Source: Pedobacter cryoconitis (GTDB taxonomy: Bacteria > Bacteroidota > Bacteroidia > Sphingobacteriales > Sphingobacteriaceae). Taken from it: DNA of 64,000 nucleotides. The position numbers and the translations under genes were made by a program. Shown here piece by piece: positions 24,860 through 35,365 of the stretch. Where the stretch lies: NCBI RefSeq assembly GCF_014200595.1, contig NZ_JACHCG010000004.1, positions 186,001-250,000 on the forward strand, in the 5' to 3' direction. A model generated the notes under the pieces. That model saw only the letters and a list, made by a program, of their open reading frames with translations, did not search any database and had not been told where the DNA came from. The first letter of the stretch is position 1. Every line of letters starts with the position of its first letter.

Positions 24860-26767
24860 ATGTTTAACCGGTTCACACTCTCAAGCTTACGTACCTTACT
24901 CACAACAATCCTCCTGTTTGTCATTGGCCCGGCTGTTCATGCACAAAAAACAGTCAGCGTAAATGATAGTGTTAACCAGCATATCTTTAATTTCGGTGAA
25001 ATAGAGTGGTTCAAAGATGCTCAAAACACACTCAGCTTTGAAAAAATAAGCAGCAAAGACTTTGATCAGCATTTCATCAAAAGTATAAAAAGCACACCGC
25101 AAACTACCGATCTCAAAGCAACCTACTGGTTTAGAATTAAGATCAAACACAATAGTAAAGCCAGTAAAAGATACCTGCTTGAATTTTTCGACCAGACAAT
25201 AGACCATGTAACCGCCTATTTGCCCCAAAAGGACGGGCGCTATAAAATCAAAGAATTCGGTGATCAATTTAACTTTGATCAGCGCGAACTTCACCATAAA
25301 AATTTCGAACTGTACATCAATAATGACAATGATGAAACGCAGCTCTACTATTTCAAATTTAAATCCTCACAGATTTCTGATGCGATCATCGTACTCAGAA
25401 GCGTAGACTGGTTTATCTCCTACGCACTGGATGAATACTTTTATTTTGGTATTTTCTATGGAATGATCATGGTCTTTAGTTTCTACAACCTGATCATGTT
25501 TATCGCCATGCGGCAAAGGCAATACCTCTATTATGTACTGTACAACCTGAGTGTAGGTTTCTTTGAGATGAGTACAGATGGTATCGCCTATCAGTATTTA
25601 TGGTCTTCGGCTACCGGATGGAACCAGATTGCCTATGCCTTTGCCCTGTACGCGACCAGTATATTCGCCTTGATGTTTACCAAAGAACTGCTCTTTGTGA
25701 AGGCTAATGCCCCGAAATTAAACAAGTTTATTCTTTATATCATCGGTATCCGAACGGCGCTGTTCCTTTACAGTTTATTGATAGACCAGTCCTTATTCAC
25801 CTATAAGTTCCTGGAATTTATTCCCCTCGCCGTCGCTTTCTATACCGGTATTTACATTTACAAACAAGGTTATAAACCCGCTCGTTTCTTTGTTTTAGGC
25901 TATAGCTTCCTCTTTATTGGCTTTACCCTGAAATTCCTGATTATGCTGGGATTTGCCTGGTTAAACTTCGGGGTAATCAGCTATTATAGTCTGAGTTTCT
26001 GTTTTGTACTGGAAATGGTATTTCTTTCCTTTGCCATTGGCGATAAATTACGTATCCTGAAAACCAAAGAAGAAAAAGCACAACGTCAGATGATCCACCA
26101 GATGGCAGAAAACGTGAAGCTGAAAGATACCTTAAACCAGCAACTGGAAACTAAAGTAGAAGAACGCACCAAAGAAGTGTTTCATAAATCACTCATCATT
26201 GAAGCTAAAAATGCAGAGCTGCTTGCAGTAAATGACAGACTGCAACAGCAGGCAGAAGAAATATCGAGGATGAATATTCTGCTGGAACAAGACAACCAGG
26301 AACTTCAAACCAATGTAGAAAAAGTAACCCGTGACCGGGTGATGTCTGCCGATGTTGATTTTGAAGAATTCAGTAAAATCTATCCTGACAAAGACAGCTG
26401 CAACCTGTTTCTATCCGACCTCAAATGGAAAGACGGCTACAGCTGCCGTAAATGTAAAAACACACATTTCTATACCGGTCACATTGCATTTAGCAGAAGA
26501 TGCAGCAAATGCGGATACGAAGAATCAGTGACCGCTTATACTGTTTTTCAAAATACCCGTATCCCAATCAATAAAGCATTTTACATGATTTTCCTGATCT
26601 ATTCCAGTAAAGGAAAAATATCCTCTCACAAGCTTGCCGAAATACTGAATATCCGCCAAAGCACCTGCTGGACTTATGGTTCCAAGATCAAACTTTTGAT
26701 GGAAGAGAGAAAAACGGTGTTAAAAAAGACCAGCAAAAATGGCTGGAGCCAGCTTGTACTCGAATAA
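24860..26767 (+). CDS. 7TM-DISM membrane sensor fused to an IS1595-transposase-like zinc-ribbon region
   Basis: The 635-aa protein has, in order: a signal peptide (to about 29, AVHAQ); a 7TMR-DISMED2-like extracellular sensing domain (about 35-180); seven membrane helices (about 190-395); a coiled coil (about 400-495, KTKEEKAQRQMIHQMAENVK then LETKVEERTKEV); and a C-terminal region (about 500-620). That region copies the N-terminus of IS1595-family transposases: FLSDLKWKDGYSC, zinc cysteines C529, C532, C548 and C551, the T.F...R.P..KAFYMI block and a helix-turn-helix-like HKLAEILNIRQSTCW. The DDE catalytic domain is absent, so this should be a DNA-binding output, not a transposase. It stands immediately upstream of the susC-susD-GH3-GH30 locus in the same direction and is the only regulator there. 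Sensor plus DNA-binding role is an inference. Confidence 0.85.
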   Translation: MFNRFTLSSLRTLLTTILLFVIGPAVHAQKTVSVNDSVNQHIFNFGEIEWFKDAQNTLSFEKISSKDFDQHFIKSIKSTPQTTDLKATYWFRIKIKHNSKASKRYLLEFFDQTIDHVTAYLPQKDGRYKIKEFGDQFNFDQRELHHKNFELYINNDNDETQLYYFKFKSSQISDAIIVLRSVDWFISYALDEYFYFGIFYGMIMVFSFYNLIMFIAMRQRQYLYYVLYNLSVGFFEMSTDGIAYQYLWSSATGWNQIAYAFALYATSIFALMFTKELLFVKANAPKLNKFILYIIGIRTALFLYSLLIDQSLFTYKFLEFIPLAVAFYTGIYIYKQGYKPARFFVLGYSFLFIGFTLKFLIMLGFAWLNFGVISYYSLSFCFVLEMVFLSFAIGDKLRILKTKEEKAQRQMIHQMAENVKLKDTLNQQLETKVEERTKEVFHKSLIIEAKNAELLAVNDRLQQQAEEISRMNILLEQDNQELQTNVEKVTRDRVMSADVDFEEFSKIYPDKDSCNLFLSDLKWKDGYSCRKCKNTHFYTGHIAFSRRCSKCGYEESVTAYTVFQNTRIPINKAFYMIFLIYSSKGKISSHKLAEILNIRQSTCWTYGSKIKLLMEERKTVLKKTSKNGWSQLVLE

Positions 26768-26805
26768 AAACCATTAAAATCAGATTAATTCTTTAAGGGT
26801 ATCAG

Positions 26806-26903
26806 AGCGTATCGTTTATACAAAGCTATGAACGGGATCTCTTTCTTTATGTGCTGTAAATCAGCTATAAACCAATATTTAACCTACGGTACTGAAGCGT
26901 ATC
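26806..26903 (+). promoter_or_regulatory. Two AGCGTATC direct repeats upstream of susC
   Basis: Copies at 26806-26813 and 26896-26903 have their first bases 90 bp apart, in the 258-bp gap between the sensor gene and susC. They are possible binding sites for the adjacent regulator. Two 8-mers alone are weak evidence. Confidence 0.3.
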
Positions 26904-26962
26904 AACATCGACATAAACATCTATATATCAGTGATTTATGTAAAAAATATTTGTTTAATATC

Positions 26963-27025: not shown

Positions 27026-30000
27026 ATGACTAAAAATTTTACTCTTTTAATCATTTGCCTTTTATGCGGGATCTCTGTAGCCATAGCACAGAACATCAAT
27101 ATAAAAGGTGAAGTCAAAGATAATCAGGGCCTGCCTTTACCGGGAGTCTCGGTTAAAGTCGATGGCACCAGCAATGGAGTGATGACCAACAAAGATGGTA
27201 TCTACACTTTATCTGCTCCAGGAAACGGCACACTTACTTTTTCATTTATAGGCTATAAAACGATTTCGCAAGCCATTAACAACAGAACAAATATTAATAC
27301 CACTTTAACAGATGCAAATCAGGAACTGAATGAAGTAGTCGTGGTAGGTTATGGTTCACAGAAAAAGAAAGATATCACTTCTGCGATCTCTACCATCAGT
27401 GTTAAAGATGTAAGCGCACGCCCAATCATCAATACCTCTGAAGTTCTTGCGGGAAAAGCTCCCGGAGTACAGGTATTCAACGCATCAGGCGCACCAGGTG
27501 GTGGTAATTTCAGTGTAAGAATACGTGGAGCATCCTCACCAAACGGTTCTGAACCTATTTACGTTGTAGATGGAGTTGTGGTAAGAAACACTGAAAGTAT
27601 AGATCCTAACAACATTGAATCAATCAGCGTACTAAAAGACGCTTCTGCTGCCGGAATCTATGGTTCATTAGGCGCTACCAATGGTGTGGTATTGATCACA
27701 ACTAAAAAAGGAACAAGCGGGCAGACTAAGGTCGAAGTAAACATGTATGCAGGTAAACAGCAAATCATTAAAAAATTAGATATGCTGAATGCTGACCAGT
27801 ACAAAGACCTGATTGCTGATGAATATACCAATAAAGGACAGAATGTACCAGCATTTCCAGCTAATTTCACTGCCGATAACAACTGGCAGGATCTGACCTA
27901 CCGTTCTGCAAACCAAAGTGGAATTAATGTAGGTGTATCCGGCGGTACTGACAAAGGTACCTTCTATTTAGGATTAGGCCGCTTGCAACAAGACGGGATT
28001 GTATATGGTACTAACTTTAAACGTTATTCTACTAACCTGAGTTTAGAGCAAAAGCTGAAACCGTGGTTATCTGTAGGAACTAACATTGCTTACAACAGAA
28101 CTGACGGACGTACCGTGAATGATAACCAGTCTGCTAACCGCGGCGGAACAATACTCGGTGCACTTTATGCCCCACCTATCCTTCCAATTTTCAATGCAAG
28201 TGGTAAATACCAGGCTAACACAGATAACGTATCTAACCCATTGGATGATATTTACAGTAATGAGAACCATTATGTAAAAAACAATTTACTGGGAAATGCA
28301 CATGCTGAAATCACTTTGCCATTTAACATTAAATACCGTTCACAATTTGGTATTTCATTAAATAACTATAACAACGATACCTTCACTAACCCGCTAACTA
28401 ATCAGGGAGCAAGCCAGGTTAATGGTATAGGATCCAATACAGCCAATGAAACCTTCCGTTATACCTGGGATAATACTTTAACCTACTCTACAGTAATCAA
28501 CGGAAAACATAACATTACTGCTGTAGTTGGAACATCTGCTATAGAAGAAAAATATACAAACAGCTATTTATACGGTACTGGTTTTCCAGCAGGAATAAAG
28601 ACATTAAATGCTGCAAGTGCGAATAAACAGATTTCTACTTTTAAAACAGACTGGACAAGTAATTCTTACTTTGGCCGTATCAATTACGGTTATAACGATA
28701 AGTACCTGTTAACTGCCTCATTAAGAGCTGACGGATCATCCAGAGCAGGTATTAATAACCAATGGGGATATTTCCCGGCAGTATCGGGAGCATGGCGTAT
28801 TTCTAACGAAGACTTTTTGAAAGAAAATACAGTCATCAAAGACCTTAAACTAAGAGCAGGTTATGGTGAAGTAGGTAATTTACCTCAAACACTGTACAAT
28901 AGCTACAGTTCACTGGATCCTTCAGCCTACTTATTTGGAGGAAACAGTGCTTCAGGTTACAGACCAGCTAATCCATTCGGTAATCCAGATCTGAAATGGG
29001 AAAGTACTAAAGGATTAAATATTGGTTTTGATCTATCTGTATTGAATGACAGAATAGCGTTCAGTGCTGATTACTACGATAAAAAAACAACTAACTTCAT
29101 TTTCCCGGTAACTTTCCCAACTGCAATTTCGGGTAATGCAAATACTGGTTATTACAACTTACCAGGTAATATCTCGAACAAAGGGATTGAATTTTCAATA
29201 ACAGGCAGAATAATTGCAAAAACAGATTTTTCATGGACTGCTAACTTAAATGCATCCTTCAATAAAAATTCTGTAAACGGTATGCCGCAGATCCTGGATA
29301 GCAAAGGTAATAACGTAGACCAGACCTTCCCATTCGGCGGTATAGGATTTGGTGGTAATGGAAACAACACCAACTTATCAATTGTTAAAAATGGTCTGCC
29401 ATTAGGCGCATTTTACGGTTACCAATACACAGGTGTTGATCCAGCCAATGGAAATGCATTGTATAGAAAAGCAGATGGAACGATTACTGCAAAACCAGAA
29501 GCTGCCGATCAGACTTATCTTGGTAGTGGTTTGCCGAAAGGCGTATATGGCTTTACCAACAGTTTTAACTATAAAAGCTTAAGCCTTGATATCTTGATTG
29601 ATGCAGTTACCGGAAACAAAGTTTACAATGCGACAAGAGTAGAAACTGAATCTATGTCTTCCACAGCTAATGCAAGTGCAGCAGTATTAGATCGCTGGAG
29701 AAAACCAGGTGATATTACTGATATCCCAGGTGCATTTTTTGGTGGTATAAATGCTGCGGGTACAACCAACACACTTCCATCATCACGCTTTGTTGAGAAT
29801 GGTTCATTTGTACGTTTGAAATCAATCACGTTAAGCTACAGGATTAAAAACAGCTTGTTTGATAAGCAAGGTATACAGCTTACTGTATATGCTACAGCTC
29901 AGAACCTATGGACAATCACAAAATACAAAGGTTATTACCCTGAGGTCAACACCTTCAGTTCAAGCTCTCAGCAAGATGGTAAACTTGGTGCACCAAGCTC

Positions 30001-30076
30001 TACTGCTGTGGGTATAGATTACGGTACTTACCCGCAAACAAAAACATACACAGCAGGTCTGAATCTATCTTTTTAA
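27026..30076 (+). CDS. SusC-family TonB-dependent glycan transporter
   Basis: The 1016-aa outer-membrane importer has a signal peptide to about residue 21, a carboxypeptidase-regulatory domain (25-105, GEVKDNQGLPLPGVSVKV), TonB box and linker (ELNEVVVVGYGSQKKKD), plug with the family-typical PNGSEPIYVVDGVVV and IESISVLKDASAAGIYGS, and a long barrel ending in GLNLSF. There is no STN domain, so signalling through an anti-sigma factor is not expected, in line with the absence of an ECF sigma pair. It forms a pair with SusD 21 bases downstream. A glucan is the likely cargo, judged from the enzymes. Confidence 0.96.
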   Translation: MTKNFTLLIICLLCGISVAIAQNINIKGEVKDNQGLPLPGVSVKVDGTSNGVMTNKDGIYTLSAPGNGTLTFSFIGYKTISQAINNRTNINTTLTDANQELNEVVVVGYGSQKKKDITSAISTISVKDVSARPIINTSEVLAGKAPGVQVFNASGAPGGGNFSVRIRGASSPNGSEPIYVVDGVVVRNTESIDPNNIESISVLKDASAAGIYGSLGATNGVVLITTKKGTSGQTKVEVNMYAGKQQIIKKLDMLNADQYKDLIADEYTNKGQNVPAFPANFTADNNWQDLTYRSANQSGINVGVSGGTDKGTFYLGLGRLQQDGIVYGTNFKRYSTNLSLEQKLKPWLSVGTNIAYNRTDGRTVNDNQSANRGGTILGALYAPPILPIFNASGKYQANTDNVSNPLDDIYSNENHYVKNNLLGNAHAEITLPFNIKYRSQFGISLNNYNNDTFTNPLTNQGASQVNGIGSNTANETFRYTWDNTLTYSTVINGKHNITAVVGTSAIEEKYTNSYLYGTGFPAGIKTLNAASANKQISTFKTDWTSNSYFGRINYGYNDKYLLTASLRADGSSRAGINNQWGYFPAVSGAWRISNEDFLKENTVIKDLKLRAGYGEVGNLPQTLYNSYSSLDPSAYLFGGNSASGYRPANPFGNPDLKWESTKGLNIGFDLSVLNDRIAFSADYYDKKTTNFIFPVTFPTAISGNANTGYYNLPGNISNKGIEFSITGRIIAKTDFSWTANLNASFNKNSVNGMPQILDSKGNNVDQTFPFGGIGFGGNGNNTNLSIVKNGLPLGAFYGYQYTGVDPANGNALYRKADGTITAKPEAADQTYLGSGLPKGVYGFTNSFNYKSLSLDILIDAVTGNKVYNATRVETESMSSTANASAAVLDRWRKPGDITDIPGAFFGGINAAGTTNTLPSSRFVENGSFVRLKSITLSYRIKNSLFDKQGIQLTVYATAQNLWTITKYKGYYPEVNTFSSSSQQDGKLGAPSSTAVGIDYGTYPQTKTYTAGLNLSF

Positions 30077-30097
30077 TCCTATCCTAAATTTTAAGAA

Positions 30098-31573
30098 ATG
30101 AACAACTATCATAAAATATTAACCATTGCGATGTGCGGCTCAATTGGCCTGCTCTCCTCTTGTAAAAAAAGCTTTTTAGACAAACAACCAATCTCACAAG
30201 GAACCGCTGGAACCTATTACAAAACTGCCAGTGATGCCGAAGGTGGCCTGGTTGGTGTTTATCAGCAAGCCTTTTTAACAAACCAATACTGGGTTTGGGA
30301 TTATATTACCAATGGTGATGCCCGTGCAGATAACTGTTACGCAGGTGGTGATAACCCGGACAACTTTGCAATTGATAACTTTCAGCTTACTCCGCAAAAC
30401 GGAAATGCGACCCGTAACTGGCAGAATTTATATCAGGATATCTATGCAGCGAATATCGTACTGGATTATGTCCCTAAAATTGCAGCAGAACAATTTAAAG
30501 ATAACAGACAACAAGAGATCCTGGGTGAAGCTAAATTTGTAAGAGCACTGGATTACTTCCAATTGGTAACGACCTACAGTGATGTACCAATAATTTTATC
30601 AACTGTTGATTTCCCGGCTAAACCAAGCAGAAACGCAGCAACAGAAGTTTATGCACAAATCGAGAAAGACCTGATAGACGCAGAAACTGCCCTGCCACTT
30701 ACCGCAGCTTCAGTTGGTCATGCCACTAAGGGTTCAGCACAAGCTTTATTAGCTAAAGTATATGCACAAGAAGGAAAATATCAGCAAAGTCTGGACTATA
30801 GCAATAAAGTGATCAACTCAGGAAAATATGCACTGGTCCCTAATTTTGCTACTCTGTTTGATGGTACCAAGAACACGTCTGAATCTATATTTGAGATTCA
30901 GCACTCTTCTGCAAGTGGTTTTACCAGTTACAATGTTTCCTTATTCTTGCCTGCGAAATTTGGTACTTACTCTTTCAATAAGTTCAATCTTCCAACAAAT
31001 GACCTGGTTAACTTGTATAAATCTCAAAACGATAATATCCGTTTGAATTCATCGGTTTATCTGGCAACTGTTGGCGCAGATGGCCTGGCTGCCGGAGATC
31101 CTATCCCGACACCATATACCGCTGCTTATGGTACAATTCCTTTCCTGTATAAGTGGAAAACCAATATTTCACAATACGGTGGTGGTACAGATAACACGAT
31201 ACTGCTGCGTTTAGCAGATATCATCCTGTTAAAAGCTGAAGCATTGAACCAGTTAGGTCAAACAGGGGCAGCAATTCCTTTAGTTAACCAGATCAGAGCC
31301 AGAGTTTCACTCGCGCCTATCACAGTAACTTCAAAAGACGATGTTGCTCTTGCCATTTTAAATGAAAGAAGAATGGAATTAGCATTTGAAGGTAATCGCT
31401 GGAATGACCTTTTAAGATTCGGTAAACAATACACAATTGACCTGATGAATAAACAAGTTGGCCCTGATGGAAAACCATTGAATTACAATGTAAGTCAGAC
31501 CAAATTATTATTCCCTGTTCCATTTAATGAAATACAATTAGACGGGAACCTGACGCAGAACCCTGGTTACTAA
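30098..31573 (+). CDS. SusD/RagB-family surface glycan-binding lipoprotein
   Basis: The 491-aa lipoprotein (signal to SSC22, followed by KKSFLDKQPIS) caps the SusC barrel on the cell surface and binds oligosaccharide. SusD traits are the tetratricopeptide-like helices with LGEAKFVRALDYFQLV (about 147-162), the GSAQALLAKVYAQEGKY helix, and the C-terminal ILNERRMELAFEGNRWNDLLRFG. A terminator-like hairpin follows the stop, before the GH3 gene. Confidence 0.96.
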   Translation: MNNYHKILTIAMCGSIGLLSSCKKSFLDKQPISQGTAGTYYKTASDAEGGLVGVYQQAFLTNQYWVWDYITNGDARADNCYAGGDNPDNFAIDNFQLTPQNGNATRNWQNLYQDIYAANIVLDYVPKIAAEQFKDNRQQEILGEAKFVRALDYFQLVTTYSDVPIILSTVDFPAKPSRNAATEVYAQIEKDLIDAETALPLTAASVGHATKGSAQALLAKVYAQEGKYQQSLDYSNKVINSGKYALVPNFATLFDGTKNTSESIFEIQHSSASGFTSYNVSLFLPAKFGTYSFNKFNLPTNDLVNLYKSQNDNIRLNSSVYLATVGADGLAAGDPIPTPYTAAYGTIPFLYKWKTNISQYGGGTDNTILLRLADIILLKAEALNQLGQTGAAIPLVNQIRARVSLAPITVTSKDDVALAILNERRMELAFEGNRWNDLLRFGKQYTIDLMNKQVGPDGKPLNYNVSQTKLLFPVPFNEIQLDGNLTQNPGY

Positions 31574-31643: not shown

Positions 31644-33944
31644 ATGTATTTAAAAAAACCCCTCTCTGTTCTTTTGTTAATGCTCTCTTACGGAATAGCC
31701 GGTGCACAAACAAAGAATAATGCGAAAGTAGAAAGCCTGCTTCAGAAAATGACTCTGGAAGAAAAGGTAGGTCAGATGGCACAGATAACGTTAGACGTTA
31801 TCGGAACCGGTAAAGATCGCTATACCAGTGATGAGCCCTTCTCTCTGGATCAAAAAGCAATGGAAAAAGCACTGATCCAGTATAAACTGGGGTCAGTATT
31901 AAATACATCAAATAACAGGGCAAGAACACCTAAGGTTTGGTATGAAATTATCAGCAAAATTCAGCAAACTGCGATGAAAGGAACCAAGAATGGTATTCCT
32001 GTCATCTATGGTATTGATGCTATTCATGGTGAAACTTATACCGCAGGTGCAACGATGTTCCCGCAGCAGATCGGACAAGCAGCGACTTTCAACAGGAGCC
32101 TGGTTCGCAGAGGTGCTGAAATCACAGCTTATGAAACCCGTGCAAGCTCTATTCCATGGGCATTCTCTCCTTTATTGGATTTAGGTGCTGATCCACGCTT
32201 CCCTCGTCAATGGGAAAGTTTCGGAGAAGATCCTTATTTAGTAAGTGAAATGGGTGTTCAGGCTGTAAAAGGTCTGGAAGGAGACAATAATGATGTTTCC
32301 AATCCATACCGTGTAGCTTCTTCAATTAAACACTTTTTAGGTTATCAAGTACCAATTTCAGGTAAAGACAGAACTCCTGCCTATATTTCTGATCAGGCTT
32401 TAAGAGAATATCACTTACCGTCTTTCAGAGCAGCTATTCATGCAGGTGCTAAAACTATTATGATCAACTCCGGAATTATCAATGGTGTTCCGGTGCATGC
32501 AAACTATAACCTGATCACTAAGTTGTTAAAAGAAGAATTAGGCTTTAAAGGTTTAGCAGTAACAGACTGGGGCGATATTGAGAACCTTTACAAAAGAGAT
32601 CATGTGGCTAAAGACAATAAAGATGCGGTAAGAATTGCTATTAATGCAGGTATTGATATGTCAATGGTTGCTTATAACTATGAGCCATTCTGTGATGACC
32701 TGATTGCTTTAGTTAAAGAAGGTAAAGTTAAAGAAAGCCGTATCGATGATGCAGTAAGAAGAATCTTACAGGTAAAATTTGATTTAGATCTTTTCAACAA
32801 GCCAACAACCAATCCTAAAGACTATCCTAAATTTGGCAGCAAAGAATTTGAACTGGCTTCTTACCAGGCAGCAGCCGAATCTATTACGTTATTAAAAAAT
32901 GCAGATCAGGCTTTACCATTGAACAAAGGAGTAAAGATTCTGGTTACAGGTCCTAACGCAAATTCAATGAGAACTTTGAATGGCGCATGGACTTATTCAT
33001 GGCAGGGAGAAAAAGTAGAAGAATTCGCTGCTAAATACAATACTATCCTGAAAGCTTTAGAAAATAAAGCCGGCAAGCAAAACGTGACTTATGTACCGGG
33101 TGTGAGCTATAAAATGGATGGCAAATACTTTGAAGAATATGCAGACCAGTTAGATGCAGCTATCGCCGCAGCTAAAGATGTGGATGTAGTTGTATTATGT
33201 TTAGGAGAAAACTCTTATACCGAAACACCGGGTAACTTAAGCGATCTTTATCTTTCAGATCTTCAGACTGAGCTTGCACAAAAACTTGCAGCCACAGGTA
33301 AAAAGATCATTTTAGTTCTGAACGAAGGACGCCCAAGAGTGATTTCTAAGTTTGAGAACAAAATGAGTGCTGTAGTACAGAGTTATTTACCAGGTAATTT
33401 TGGTGGTGATGCTATTGCTGACATCCTTTTGGGTACAGTAAACCCATCAGGTAAATTGCCTTATACTTACCCACAGTATCCAAATGCTTTGTTTACTTAT
33501 TACCATAAACCATCTGAATCACGCTCAACTACAGAAGGTGTTTACAACTATGATGCAGATTACAACCCTCAGTACGTTTTCGGATTTGGTTTGAGTTATA
33601 CAACTTTCAAATACAGCCCGATCAAATTAAGTACTGCTGCTTTGAAAAAAGGAGAAACTTTAACAATCTCTGTGGATGTTACCAATACAGGTAAAGTTGC
33701 AGGTAAAGAAAGTGTATTGTTATTCACTTCAGACCTTGTTGCTACCTTAGTTAGCCCGGATGTAAAACGTTTAAGAGGTTTTGATAAAGTAGATTTAAAA
33801 GCTGGTGAAACTAAGACAGTAACTTTCAGGATTACTGCGGATGATTTAGGTTTCATTAATCCAGAAGGTCAGAAAGTAACTGAAGACGGGGACTTTACAG
33901 TACAAATCGGAGATCAGAAAATCAATTTCACTTACAATCAGTAA
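31644..33944 (+). CDS. Glycoside hydrolase family 3 beta-glucosidase
   Basis: The 766-aa exported enzyme has a signal peptide (to about 21, AGAQT), a TIM-barrel domain (25-370), an alpha/beta sandwich (about 400-620) and a fibronectin-III-like C-terminus (about 660-755). The nucleophile Asp308 lies in LAVTDWGDIENL; KHFLGYQVP and the PRQWESFGEDPYL stretch line the sugar site. The arrangement is that of BglX-type periplasmic beta-glucosidases that cut terminal glucose from oligosaccharides. It is third in the operon; GH30 follows after two bases. Confidence 0.94.
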   Translation: MYLKKPLSVLLLMLSYGIAGAQTKNNAKVESLLQKMTLEEKVGQMAQITLDVIGTGKDRYTSDEPFSLDQKAMEKALIQYKLGSVLNTSNNRARTPKVWYEIISKIQQTAMKGTKNGIPVIYGIDAIHGETYTAGATMFPQQIGQAATFNRSLVRRGAEITAYETRASSIPWAFSPLLDLGADPRFPRQWESFGEDPYLVSEMGVQAVKGLEGDNNDVSNPYRVASSIKHFLGYQVPISGKDRTPAYISDQALREYHLPSFRAAIHAGAKTIMINSGIINGVPVHANYNLITKLLKEELGFKGLAVTDWGDIENLYKRDHVAKDNKDAVRIAINAGIDMSMVAYNYEPFCDDLIALVKEGKVKESRIDDAVRRILQVKFDLDLFNKPTTNPKDYPKFGSKEFELASYQAAAESITLLKNADQALPLNKGVKILVTGPNANSMRTLNGAWTYSWQGEKVEEFAAKYNTILKALENKAGKQNVTYVPGVSYKMDGKYFEEYADQLDAAIAAAKDVDVVVLCLGENSYTETPGNLSDLYLSDLQTELAQKLAATGKKIILVLNEGRPRVISKFENKMSAVVQSYLPGNFGGDAIADILLGTVNPSGKLPYTYPQYPNALFTYYHKPSESRSTTEGVYNYDADYNPQYVFGFGLSYTTFKYSPIKLSTAALKKGETLTISVDVTNTGKVAGKESVLLFTSDLVATLVSPDVKRLRGFDKVDLKAGETKTVTFRITADDLGFINPEGQKVTEDGDFTVQIGDQKINFTYNQ

Positions 33945-33946
33945 TT

Positions 33947-35365
33947 ATGAAGAAAAATATCTTATTTGCTTTTGCGATTGCGCTATCGGCGTGTTCAGCA
34001 AAAAGAACAGCAACAGATCCTAACCGGTCTGCTGCTGCTAACGGTGAAATTAAATACTGGCTCACTAAAGGCGATCAATCAGCCTTATTACAAGAACAGC
34101 CAAAAACTTTAAAATTTGGGACAGCTCAAGCTGCTAATCCAGTAATTAATGTTGATGAAACTCAGAAATTTCAAACTATTGATGGTTTCGGCTACACTTT
34201 AACTGGTGGTAGTGCTGGCTTAATCAATGCATTGGATGAAAAGACTAAAGATGCCTTATTGCAGGAACTGTTCTCTACAAAGAAAAACAGTATCGGTGTA
34301 AGTTACCTGAGAATCAGTATCGGCGCCTCTGATCTGAGTGCAGATAATTTTACTTACAATGAATTACCTGCCGGACAAACTGATATGAATCAGGATAAGT
34401 TTTCTATAGCTAAAGAAATGACAGATTTAGTGCCTATCCTGAAAAAGATTCTGGCAATTAACCCTGACATTAAGATCTTAGGTTCTCCATGGACTGCTCC
34501 TACCTGGATGAAAACTAACCATAGTTTTAAAGGTGGAAGCCTGAAACCGGAATATTATGAATCTTATGCTAAATACCTGGTGAAATATATCCATGCGATG
34601 AAAGCTCAGGGAATTACGATTGATGCGATTACGATTCAAAATGAGCCTTTACATCCTGGGAATGTTCCAAGTATGTATATGGAAGCAAAAGATCAGGCTA
34701 TCTTCATTAAATCTGCTTTAGGCCCGGTATTTAAAGCTGCTGGTGTTAAAACAAAGATTATCATTTATGACCATAATGCAGATCGTCCTGATTATCCAAT
34801 CACTATTCTGGATGATCCACAGGCAAAACAATATGTTGATGGATCGGCTTTCCACTTATACGGGGGCCAGATCAATGCGTTGTCTAAAGTGCATGAAGCA
34901 CATCCGGACAAAAACCTGTATTTCACAGAACAATGGGTTGGCGGACCAGGTAAATTTGATGAGGAACTAAAATGGCATGTCTCTACCTTAATTGTCGGAG
35001 CAACCCGTAATTGGAGCAGAACTGTTTTAGAGTGGAATTTAGCCGCTGATCCTTTATATGGCCCACATACTGTAGGCGGCTGTAAAAATTGCTTAGGAGC
35101 GATTACAGTAGCTCCTGAAGTCACAAGAAACGTGGCTTATTACATTATTGGACATGCGTCGAAATTTGTAAGACCAGGGTCTTACAGAATCGGTTCTAAC
35201 ATTACTGACAATTTAGAGAATGTAGCATTCAGGACTCCTGATGGAAAAACTGCCTTGATCGTTGTCAATGGAAACACTGCTGAAAAAACCTTTAACATTC
35301 AATATAAAGGAAAAACAGTAGAAACTTCATTGCCGGCAGGTGCTGTGGCGACTTACGTTTGGTAA
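33947..35365 (+). CDS. Glycoside hydrolase family 30 lipoprotein, probable endo-beta-1,6-glucanase
   Basis: The 472-aa lipoprotein (Cys16 in ALSACSA) has a TIM barrel plus C-terminal beta-sandwich. The acid/base Glu lies in IQNEPLHPG (about 233) and the nucleophile in YFTEQWVGG (about 328); the GFGYTLTGGSAGLINAL and LGSPWTAPTWMKTN stretches are typical of subfamily 3. Together with GH3 and SusCD, this matches the known beta-1,6-glucan (yeast cell wall) locus layout of gut Bacteroides. Surface placement is likely. Glucosylceramidase is an alternative GH30 activity but fits the context less well. Confidence 0.9.
   Translation: MKKNILFAFAIALSACSAKRTATDPNRSAAANGEIKYWLTKGDQSALLQEQPKTLKFGTAQAANPVINVDETQKFQTIDGFGYTLTGGSAGLINALDEKTKDALLQELFSTKKNSIGVSYLRISIGASDLSADNFTYNELPAGQTDMNQDKFSIAKEMTDLVPILKKILAINPDIKILGSPWTAPTWMKTNHSFKGGSLKPEYYESYAKYLVKYIHAMKAQGITIDAITIQNEPLHPGNVPSMYMEAKDQAIFIKSALGPVFKAAGVKTKIIIYDHNADRPDYPITILDDPQAKQYVDGSAFHLYGGQINALSKVHEAHPDKNLYFTEQWVGGPGKFDEELKWHVSTLIVGATRNWSRTVLEWNLAADPLYGPHTVGGCKNCLGAITVAPEVTRNVAYYIIGHASKFVRPGSYRIGSNITDNLENVAFRTPDGKTALIVVNGNTAEKTFNIQYKGKTVETSLPAGAVATYVW

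Follow-up and report, generated by a model that had tools for sequence, protein, structure and literature searches.

A 7TM-DISM receptor with a transposase-derived zinc-ribbon/helix-turn-helix output, a probable regulator of the adjacent sugar-use locus in Pedobacter cryoconitis

The gene at 24860..26767 of a 64,000-nucleotide stretch of Pedobacter cryoconitis DNA (the window) encodes a membrane receptor that ends in the zinc ribbon and helix-turn-helix (HTH) region of a transposase. We put the probability at about four in five that this protein regulates the adjacent polysaccharide-utilization locus (PUL) through paired candidate sites, a reading that comes from sequence comparison. The architecture, the ancestry, the gene linkage and the conservation of the paired sites are results of computation, from which we infer DNA binding by the C-terminus, binding of the sites by this protein, and activation. 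A preliminary description of this DNA had proposed a one-protein membrane regulator with an output taken from a transposase, and this proposal is largely supported. The parts of the gene, in window coordinates, are:

24860..26767, + strand: regulator gene, 635 aa, 7TM-DISM receptor with transposase-derived zinc-ribbon/HTH output (ORF, Pfam/NCBIfam, alignment, AlphaFold)
24860..24940, + strand: N-terminal hydrophobic segment or signal peptide, residues 1-27 (model helix 2-27; signal peptide by inspection)
24998..25390, + strand: 7TMR-DISMED2 periplasmic domain, residues 47-177, RetS-like fold (Pfam, Foldseek, hmmsearch)
25433..26047, + strand: seven-helix membrane domain 7TMR-DISM_7TM, residues 192-396 (Pfam, AlphaFold)
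26048..26341, + strand: coiled coil, residues ~397-494 (model helices 372-454 and 457-494; middle of low confidence)
26387..26518, + strand: C4 zinc ribbon, IS1595 type, residues 510-553, with C529, C532, C548 and C551 (Pfam, alignment)
26567..26707, + strand: HTH region, helices 570-582, 589-596 and 600-616 (NCBIfam, AlphaFold)
26717..26764, + strand: C-terminal tail with nearly invariant W629, in at least 90% of alignment rows (alignment)

Both receptor domains score far above their curated Pfam cut-offs (7TMR-DISMED2, residues 47-177, E 6.2e-27, 94.6 bits against 22; 7TMR-DISM_7TM, residues 192-396, E 2.3e-41, 142.4 bits against 29), and the ectodomain resembles the sensor domain of RetS (Foldseek E ~1e-5; hmmsearch E ~1e-6). 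The AlphaFold model has a beta-rich ectodomain, then a helical stretch (182 to 454) compatible with seven membrane helices continuing into the coil, then ribbon and HTH; mean pLDDT is 83.9 for the whole protein and 85.9 for the C-terminal part, and the coil stretch 450-483 lies below 50. At the C-terminal end, Zn_ribbon_IS1595 (PF12760) matches residues 510-553 with 25.2 bits in the whole protein (cut-off 25.4) and with 28.3 bits when the C-terminal part is taken alone. Directly after the ribbon, residues 565-618 match the start of the NCBIfam model transpos_IS1595, positions 1-55 of 215, with 26.4 bits against a cut-off of 75. An alignment of 57 sequences shows no variation at the four cysteines C529, C532, C548 and C551. 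No DDE domain is found in the regulator, which ends at residue 635 without space for one, its tail sitting where transposases have that domain, and a Pfam scan with E up to 1 found no histidine kinase, receiver or AraC domain in it. The order of parts given in the preliminary description (DISMED2, seven helices, coil, four-cysteine ribbon, HTH-like end) is thus borne out by Pfam, alignment and AlphaFold, and the lack of a DDE domain that it had claimed agrees with a model match that stops at position 55 and a protein that stops at residue 635. The HMM search and structure prediction that it had called for gave a 7TMR-DISM_7TM match above cut-off, partial IS1595 matches, and a model in agreement with the layout.

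A search of 99 genomes returned 49 full-length matches in a single stretch, two of them in the host genome, which has two diverged copies of the regulator; two further full-length matches were split into two pieces. The weak Pfam ribbon score in the whole protein might suggest a recent accidental fusion or a functionless pseudogene, which is hardly conceivable given these 49 matches, inside which no stops were reported, and given the invariant cysteines and the nearly invariant tail in the 57 aligned sequences. Near-identical database proteins come from Pedobacter, P. cryoconitis included, and relatives presently carry names as diverse as "7TM diverse intracellular signaling domain-containing protein", "chromosome partitioning protein ParA" and "transposase". 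The zinc-ribbon/HTH module alone was detected in 58 of 395 genomes across the phylum (E<=0.001), in 131 of 301 in the family and 86 of 395 in the class (both E<=1e-12), and in 57 of 90 in genus g42 (E<=1e-25), all of these counts including transposases. Scores in the class search split, since 17 rows with at least 189 bits are proteins of 620-720 aa and the next row, at 167 bits, is a transposase. Plasmid records contain 8 places with at least 80% query coverage; the four that were inspected (Flammeovirga, Aureibacter and two Persicobacter) are all surrounded by sugar-use genes, and their CxxC pairs are preserved.

The module is not confined to 7TM-DISM receptors. It follows Reg_prop/Y_Y_Y domains (Pfam) in a 1090-aa protein of locus L129, most of whose region from Y_Y_Y to the end is matched by three database proteins (Desertivirga or Daejeonella where named, or the same contig), and two PAS domains in a 481-aa protein (L112) and four database clusters. 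Two proteins (L110, L111) join it to a single transmembrane segment and a coil, and in five others, of ~140-160 aa, it stands alone (L114, L173, L262, L268, L269). One of the latter, a 159-aa protein at 9581-10060 of L173 (G585), lies downstream of a susC-GH3 locus, and the module may therefore regulate without a sensor of its own. In L129 (6202-16381), a 7TM regulator and the Reg_prop/Y_Y_Y regulator occur in one locus, with a pair of sites 79 bp apart upstream of the latter, an arrangement that could possibly be a cascade or a local sensor swap. The stand-alone and the soluble PAS-linked versions indicate that the module can work off the membrane, and they would fit a regulator from which proteolysis frees the C-terminal part as a soluble factor. 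We consider such release unlikely here, as the coil between membrane part and output is kept in the alignment of 7TM relatives, which speaks for a protein that acts from the membrane.

The ancestry of the module was examined in a tree of 105 domains, obtained from 193 module hits after removal of near-copies and several duplicate loci, with a modest 143 columns and a midpoint root. Every version without DDE falls into one clade of 48 rows (support 100/99) among IS1595-type transposases, so that one domestication is likely; the sister group of this clade has support of only 81/59. The 48 rows comprise 37 7TM, 6 stand-alone, 2 single-TM, 1 PAS and 1 Reg_prop protein, and 1 ORF (L261) that is cut by the contig start and was labelled transposase by a length rule. 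The DDE-bearing proteins examined fall outside. An IS1595 relation had been claimed beforehand, with relatives bearing an intact DDE domain named as evidence that would speak against the idea; the partial Pfam and NCBIfam matches and the position of the clade agree with the former, and the rows of the clade (7TM, Reg_prop, PAS, single-TM, stand-alone) include none of the latter. Within the clade, the earliest branch is formed by stand-alone proteins of Bacteroidales. The Reg_prop protein clusters, at weak support (90/13), with the 7TM regulator from its own locus, a grouping that suggests a local exchange of sensors. Sequence identity between the module and a transposase with an intact DDE domain (L133) is 43%. 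The module is therefore likely to be the N-terminal DNA-binding region of an IS1595-type transposase, domesticated once, with loss of DDE.

Two further groups of IS1595-like proteins were seen in passing. Membranihabitans marinus (G256; L115-L118, L211, L214, L219) has many diverged genes of this kind (26 first-look candidates, of which 9 were scored). By inspection, other residues seem to stand where the VDE and TDxW motifs are usual; the genes form their own clade (99/93), possibly a DDE-dead, domesticated expansion. Short zinc-ribbon/HTH ORFs of 150-200 aa in Flavobacteriaceae-like genomes (L120-L125, L266) lie outside the regulator clade, three of them (L122-L124) in one common gene neighborhood, and may represent a separate domestication.

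Downstream of the regulator, the window contains a sugar-use locus:

27026..30076, + strand: SusC-like TonB-dependent transporter, predicted target (annotation of the window)
30098..31573, + strand: SusD-like lipoprotein
31644..33944, + strand: GH3 beta-glucosidase
33947..35365, + strand: GH30 enzyme, best solved relative 5ngk

Linkage was assessed in 77 7TM relatives in fetched stretches, a non-random sample chosen from search lists, of which 76 have a downstream gene. The next gene on the same strand is susC in 48 of the 76, compared with none of 20 control 7TM-DISM loci without the module; among the next three genes, as far as they run on the same strand, susC occurs in 53 of 76 against 0 of 20, and a range of 6 kb to either side includes one in 62 of 76 against 1 of 20. 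The link to neighboring sugar genes that the preliminary description had presupposed is therefore strong. For the orthologue-like loci, largely of the one type susC-susD-(GH3)-GH30, susC comes next on the same strand in 23 of 24; for the other 52 relatives it comes next in 25, lies in the three-gene run in 30 and within 6 kb in 38. The host genome has at least 56 susC genes. Among solved structures, the GH30 enzyme is closest to 5ngk, that is BT3312, the endo-1,6-beta-glucanase of the B. theta 1,6-beta-glucan locus in the available part of PMC5481569, which makes fungal beta-1,6-glucan the likely substrate; judging from its genes, susC-susD-GH3-GH30 is probably a beta-1,6-glucan locus. The SusC and SusD of the window (27026-31573) are only ~41% identical to the pairs at the nearest orthologous loci (L053, L054, L055), whereas GH3 and GH30 reach 96% and 93% there, and the transporter pair thus looks swapped within a conserved locus.

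Between the regulator and susC lie the candidate operator and associated elements:

26798..26813, + strand: candidate operator copy 1, GGTATCAGAGCGTATC (intergenic alignment, pattern scans)
26854..26865, + strand: conserved central element between the copies, CTGTAAATCAGC (alignment of 24 intergenic regions)
26888..26903, + strand: candidate operator copy 2, GGTACTGAAGCGTATC, 90 bp after copy 1 (intergenic alignment, pattern scans)
26921..26932: conserved element after the operator copies, CTATATATCAGT

When 24 orthologous regulator-susC intergenic regions are aligned, GGTAYnnAAGCGTATCR stands out as a conserved sequence present twice, with a conserved ATCAG in the middle. In every one of the 24, each copy deviates from GGTANNNNANCGTATC at no more than one position, and the spacing is 90-92 bp (one orthologue, L067, without an adjacent susC, is outside this set). 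Many related promoters likewise contain an ATCAG core. The motif was recovered independently from 25 non-redundant intergenic regions belonging to more divergent regulators: AGCGTATC ranked first among the 8-mers and is present in 12 where ~0.05 would be expected; CGTATC occurs in 16 of the 25, always on the susC strand, and regions that lack it often have CGTATT copies 76-77 bp apart. The candidate operator can be summarized as two direct repeats G-N7-AnCGTATYR, 76-79 or 87-92 bp apart. On the plus strand, (G)CGTATC precedes 41 of 49 susC genes directly after a regulator, as opposed to 6 of 29 other susC genes in the fetched stretches, and CGTATC on the minus strand precedes 0 of the 49. Five of the six motif-bearing other susC genes are in regulator-bearing stretches, and the sixth (L145) is ~20 kb from one.

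The 6.35-Mb host genome contains four exact instances of the long pattern, two at this locus, and a single instance of the paired pattern, also at this locus, for which the reversed control gives none. In 60 Pedobacter genomes there are 94 pairs, against 51, counted by hand, with the reversed control. These genomes have 55 regulator genes or fragments, and 44 of the 94 pairs are no more than 3 kb away from one of them, where 0.13 would be expected, a comparison that is partly circular because the pattern was built in part from loci on which it was tested. The 50 pairs far from regulators are about as numerous as the 51 of the control. Of the 44 near pairs, 43 are on the regulator strand and 39 downstream, and they serve 41 of the 55 regulators; their spacing is 76-79 bp (17 pairs) or 87-92 bp (27 pairs), never 80-86, so that the two classes are about one helical turn apart. 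The pair is also present at all six loci that stood outside motif finding.

The pair might instead be the operator of another regulator, with the 7TM protein merely nearby, and for 14 of the 55 Pedobacter regulator genes or fragments there is indeed no pair within 3 kb. Yet the pair follows the regulator across differing and unrelated downstream genes (several kinds of susC, and a GH30 gene in L140), keeps to its strand in the 43 of 44 cases above, and is absent from 20 of 20 7TM-DISM loci without the module and from 20 of 20 other host susC promoters. We regard an operator of another regulator as quite improbable and favor recognition by the 7TM protein itself. Among the 44 regulators whose module is 50-70% similar, only 21 have a strict pair within 1.5 kb, the motif is found for none of nine distant regulators (less than 50% module similarity), and a motif search in 11 distant-regulator regions found no alternative motif. 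The second copy of the regulator in the host (G000:C1:1446554) has a single site only, upstream of the preceding gene, and single half-sites AAGCGTATCR are no more frequent in the host genome than the reversed control (13 of each). Autoregulation was considered and rejected, as GCGTATC occurs within 300 bp upstream of only 7 of 73 regulators.

The operator might derive from transposon ends, and for this idea terminal inverted repeats of related elements were compared with an operator matrix derived from 89 sites. With the 11-bp core, 4 of 21 arms (L229, L133, L236R, L215) reached an uncorrected p<0.05 against single-letter shuffles, and 3 of 21 did so with the 18-bp matrix; the L133 arm is upstream sequence, the other end being off the contig. 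The ends of the nearest six-copy group in Sphingobacteriaceae (L290) have no likeness to the operator. This IS1595-type element (L290, L315; G1104) has six equal-score matches in one genome, and two copies that were compared are 99.5% identical over 978 bp, so it has probably been active recently.

Together, our data suggest a model in which the protein would be a membrane-bound one-protein activator of the adjacent susC-susD-GH3-GH30 locus, and would thus probably switch sugar-digestion genes on. The periplasmic DISMED2/7TM part may sense a product of glucan breakdown, and the coiled coil would relay the change to the cytoplasmic zinc-ribbon/HTH module. Two modules, probably two dimers or two arms of one, would then bind the direct repeats ~90 bp apart, both on one face of the DNA upstream of susC, and binding would turn on transcription. 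The output itself would be the N-terminus of an IS1595-type transposase that was domesticated once, lost DDE and was joined to several kinds of sensor. The details of dimer geometry, ligand and zinc are put forward with less confidence than the regulatory role as such.

We also lean towards the broader idea that one IS1595-type domestication founded a whole regulator class in Bacteroidota, with the module re-plugged onto 7TM-DISM, Reg_prop/Y_Y_Y, PAS and coil sensors, and that this adds a fourth class of PUL switch to SusR, HTCS and ECF/anti-sigma. Many Bacteroidota carry such genes. If true, the idea provides a directly testable set of regulator, predicted operator and targets, a clear example from bacteria of a signaling output made out of the DNA-binding end of a transposase, and a new way to approach the activation of sugar-use loci.

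Among known systems, the IS1595-family transposases share the N-terminal zinc ribbon and HTH region and the ancestry with the regulator, which differs by being without DDE, by not being multicopy and by its added tail and sensors. Known outputs of 7TMR-DISM receptors include kinases and cyclases. The regulator has both receptor domains of RetS and LadS and a RetS-like ectodomain, but its output is a transposase-type zinc ribbon/HTH. Hybrid two-component systems (HTCS) share the PUL location, and the Reg_prop/Y_Y_Y sensor in the L129 variant only; unlike them, neither the regulator nor the L129 protein has a histidine kinase, receiver or AraC domain in Pfam scans.

The closest likeness, by published description, is to SusR. 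The available parts of PMC6874557 and PMC10316084 list SusR-like, HTCS and ECF/anti-sigma regulators as PUL classes and call the SusR mechanism undefined. The preliminary description had known of no described regulator of this type: this holds for the architecture, on which no paper appeared among the literature matches listed, but less so for the way of working, since SusR, as far as the available part of PMC3878776 describes it, appears to act alike. Whether the regulator and SusR are one family is the main uncertainty. That the regulator is a Sphingobacteriales branch of the SusR family, with the orphan DNA-binding domain of SusR in the same transposase-derived clade, is a possibility that we take seriously and rather doubt. 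No Pfam or NCBIfam match, nor any source name among the matches listed, reads SusR; the zinc ribbon, the 7TM-DISM domain and transposase descent are features here and absent from the SusR descriptions in the available parts of PMC3878776 and PMC5481569. In the host genome itself, inspection of the genes upstream of 20 of the at least 56 susC genes gave no SusR candidate; ECF/anti-sigma pairs, LacI, a Reg_prop-HTH protein, a kinase-regulator pair and enzymes are found. In favor of one family, the available part of PMC3878776 describes the C-terminal HTH domain of SusR, a membrane PUL activator of Bacteroides, as "with no significant similarity" to other DNA-binding domains; if SusR belongs to the class, its orphan domain would be explained too. 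As described there, SusR-like regulators (SusR, SusR2, SusR3/BT3309) are, like the protein proposed here, single-protein membrane activators that adjoin susC and have predicted direct-repeat operators of unusually long spacing, with centers 67 or 77 bp apart, compared with 76-79 and 87-92 bp here. The B. theta 1,6-beta-glucan PUL whose regulator gene is SusR3/BT3309 comprises SusCD, GH30_3 and GH3 (PMC3878776, PMC5481569, in the parts available), the same gene set as in the window.
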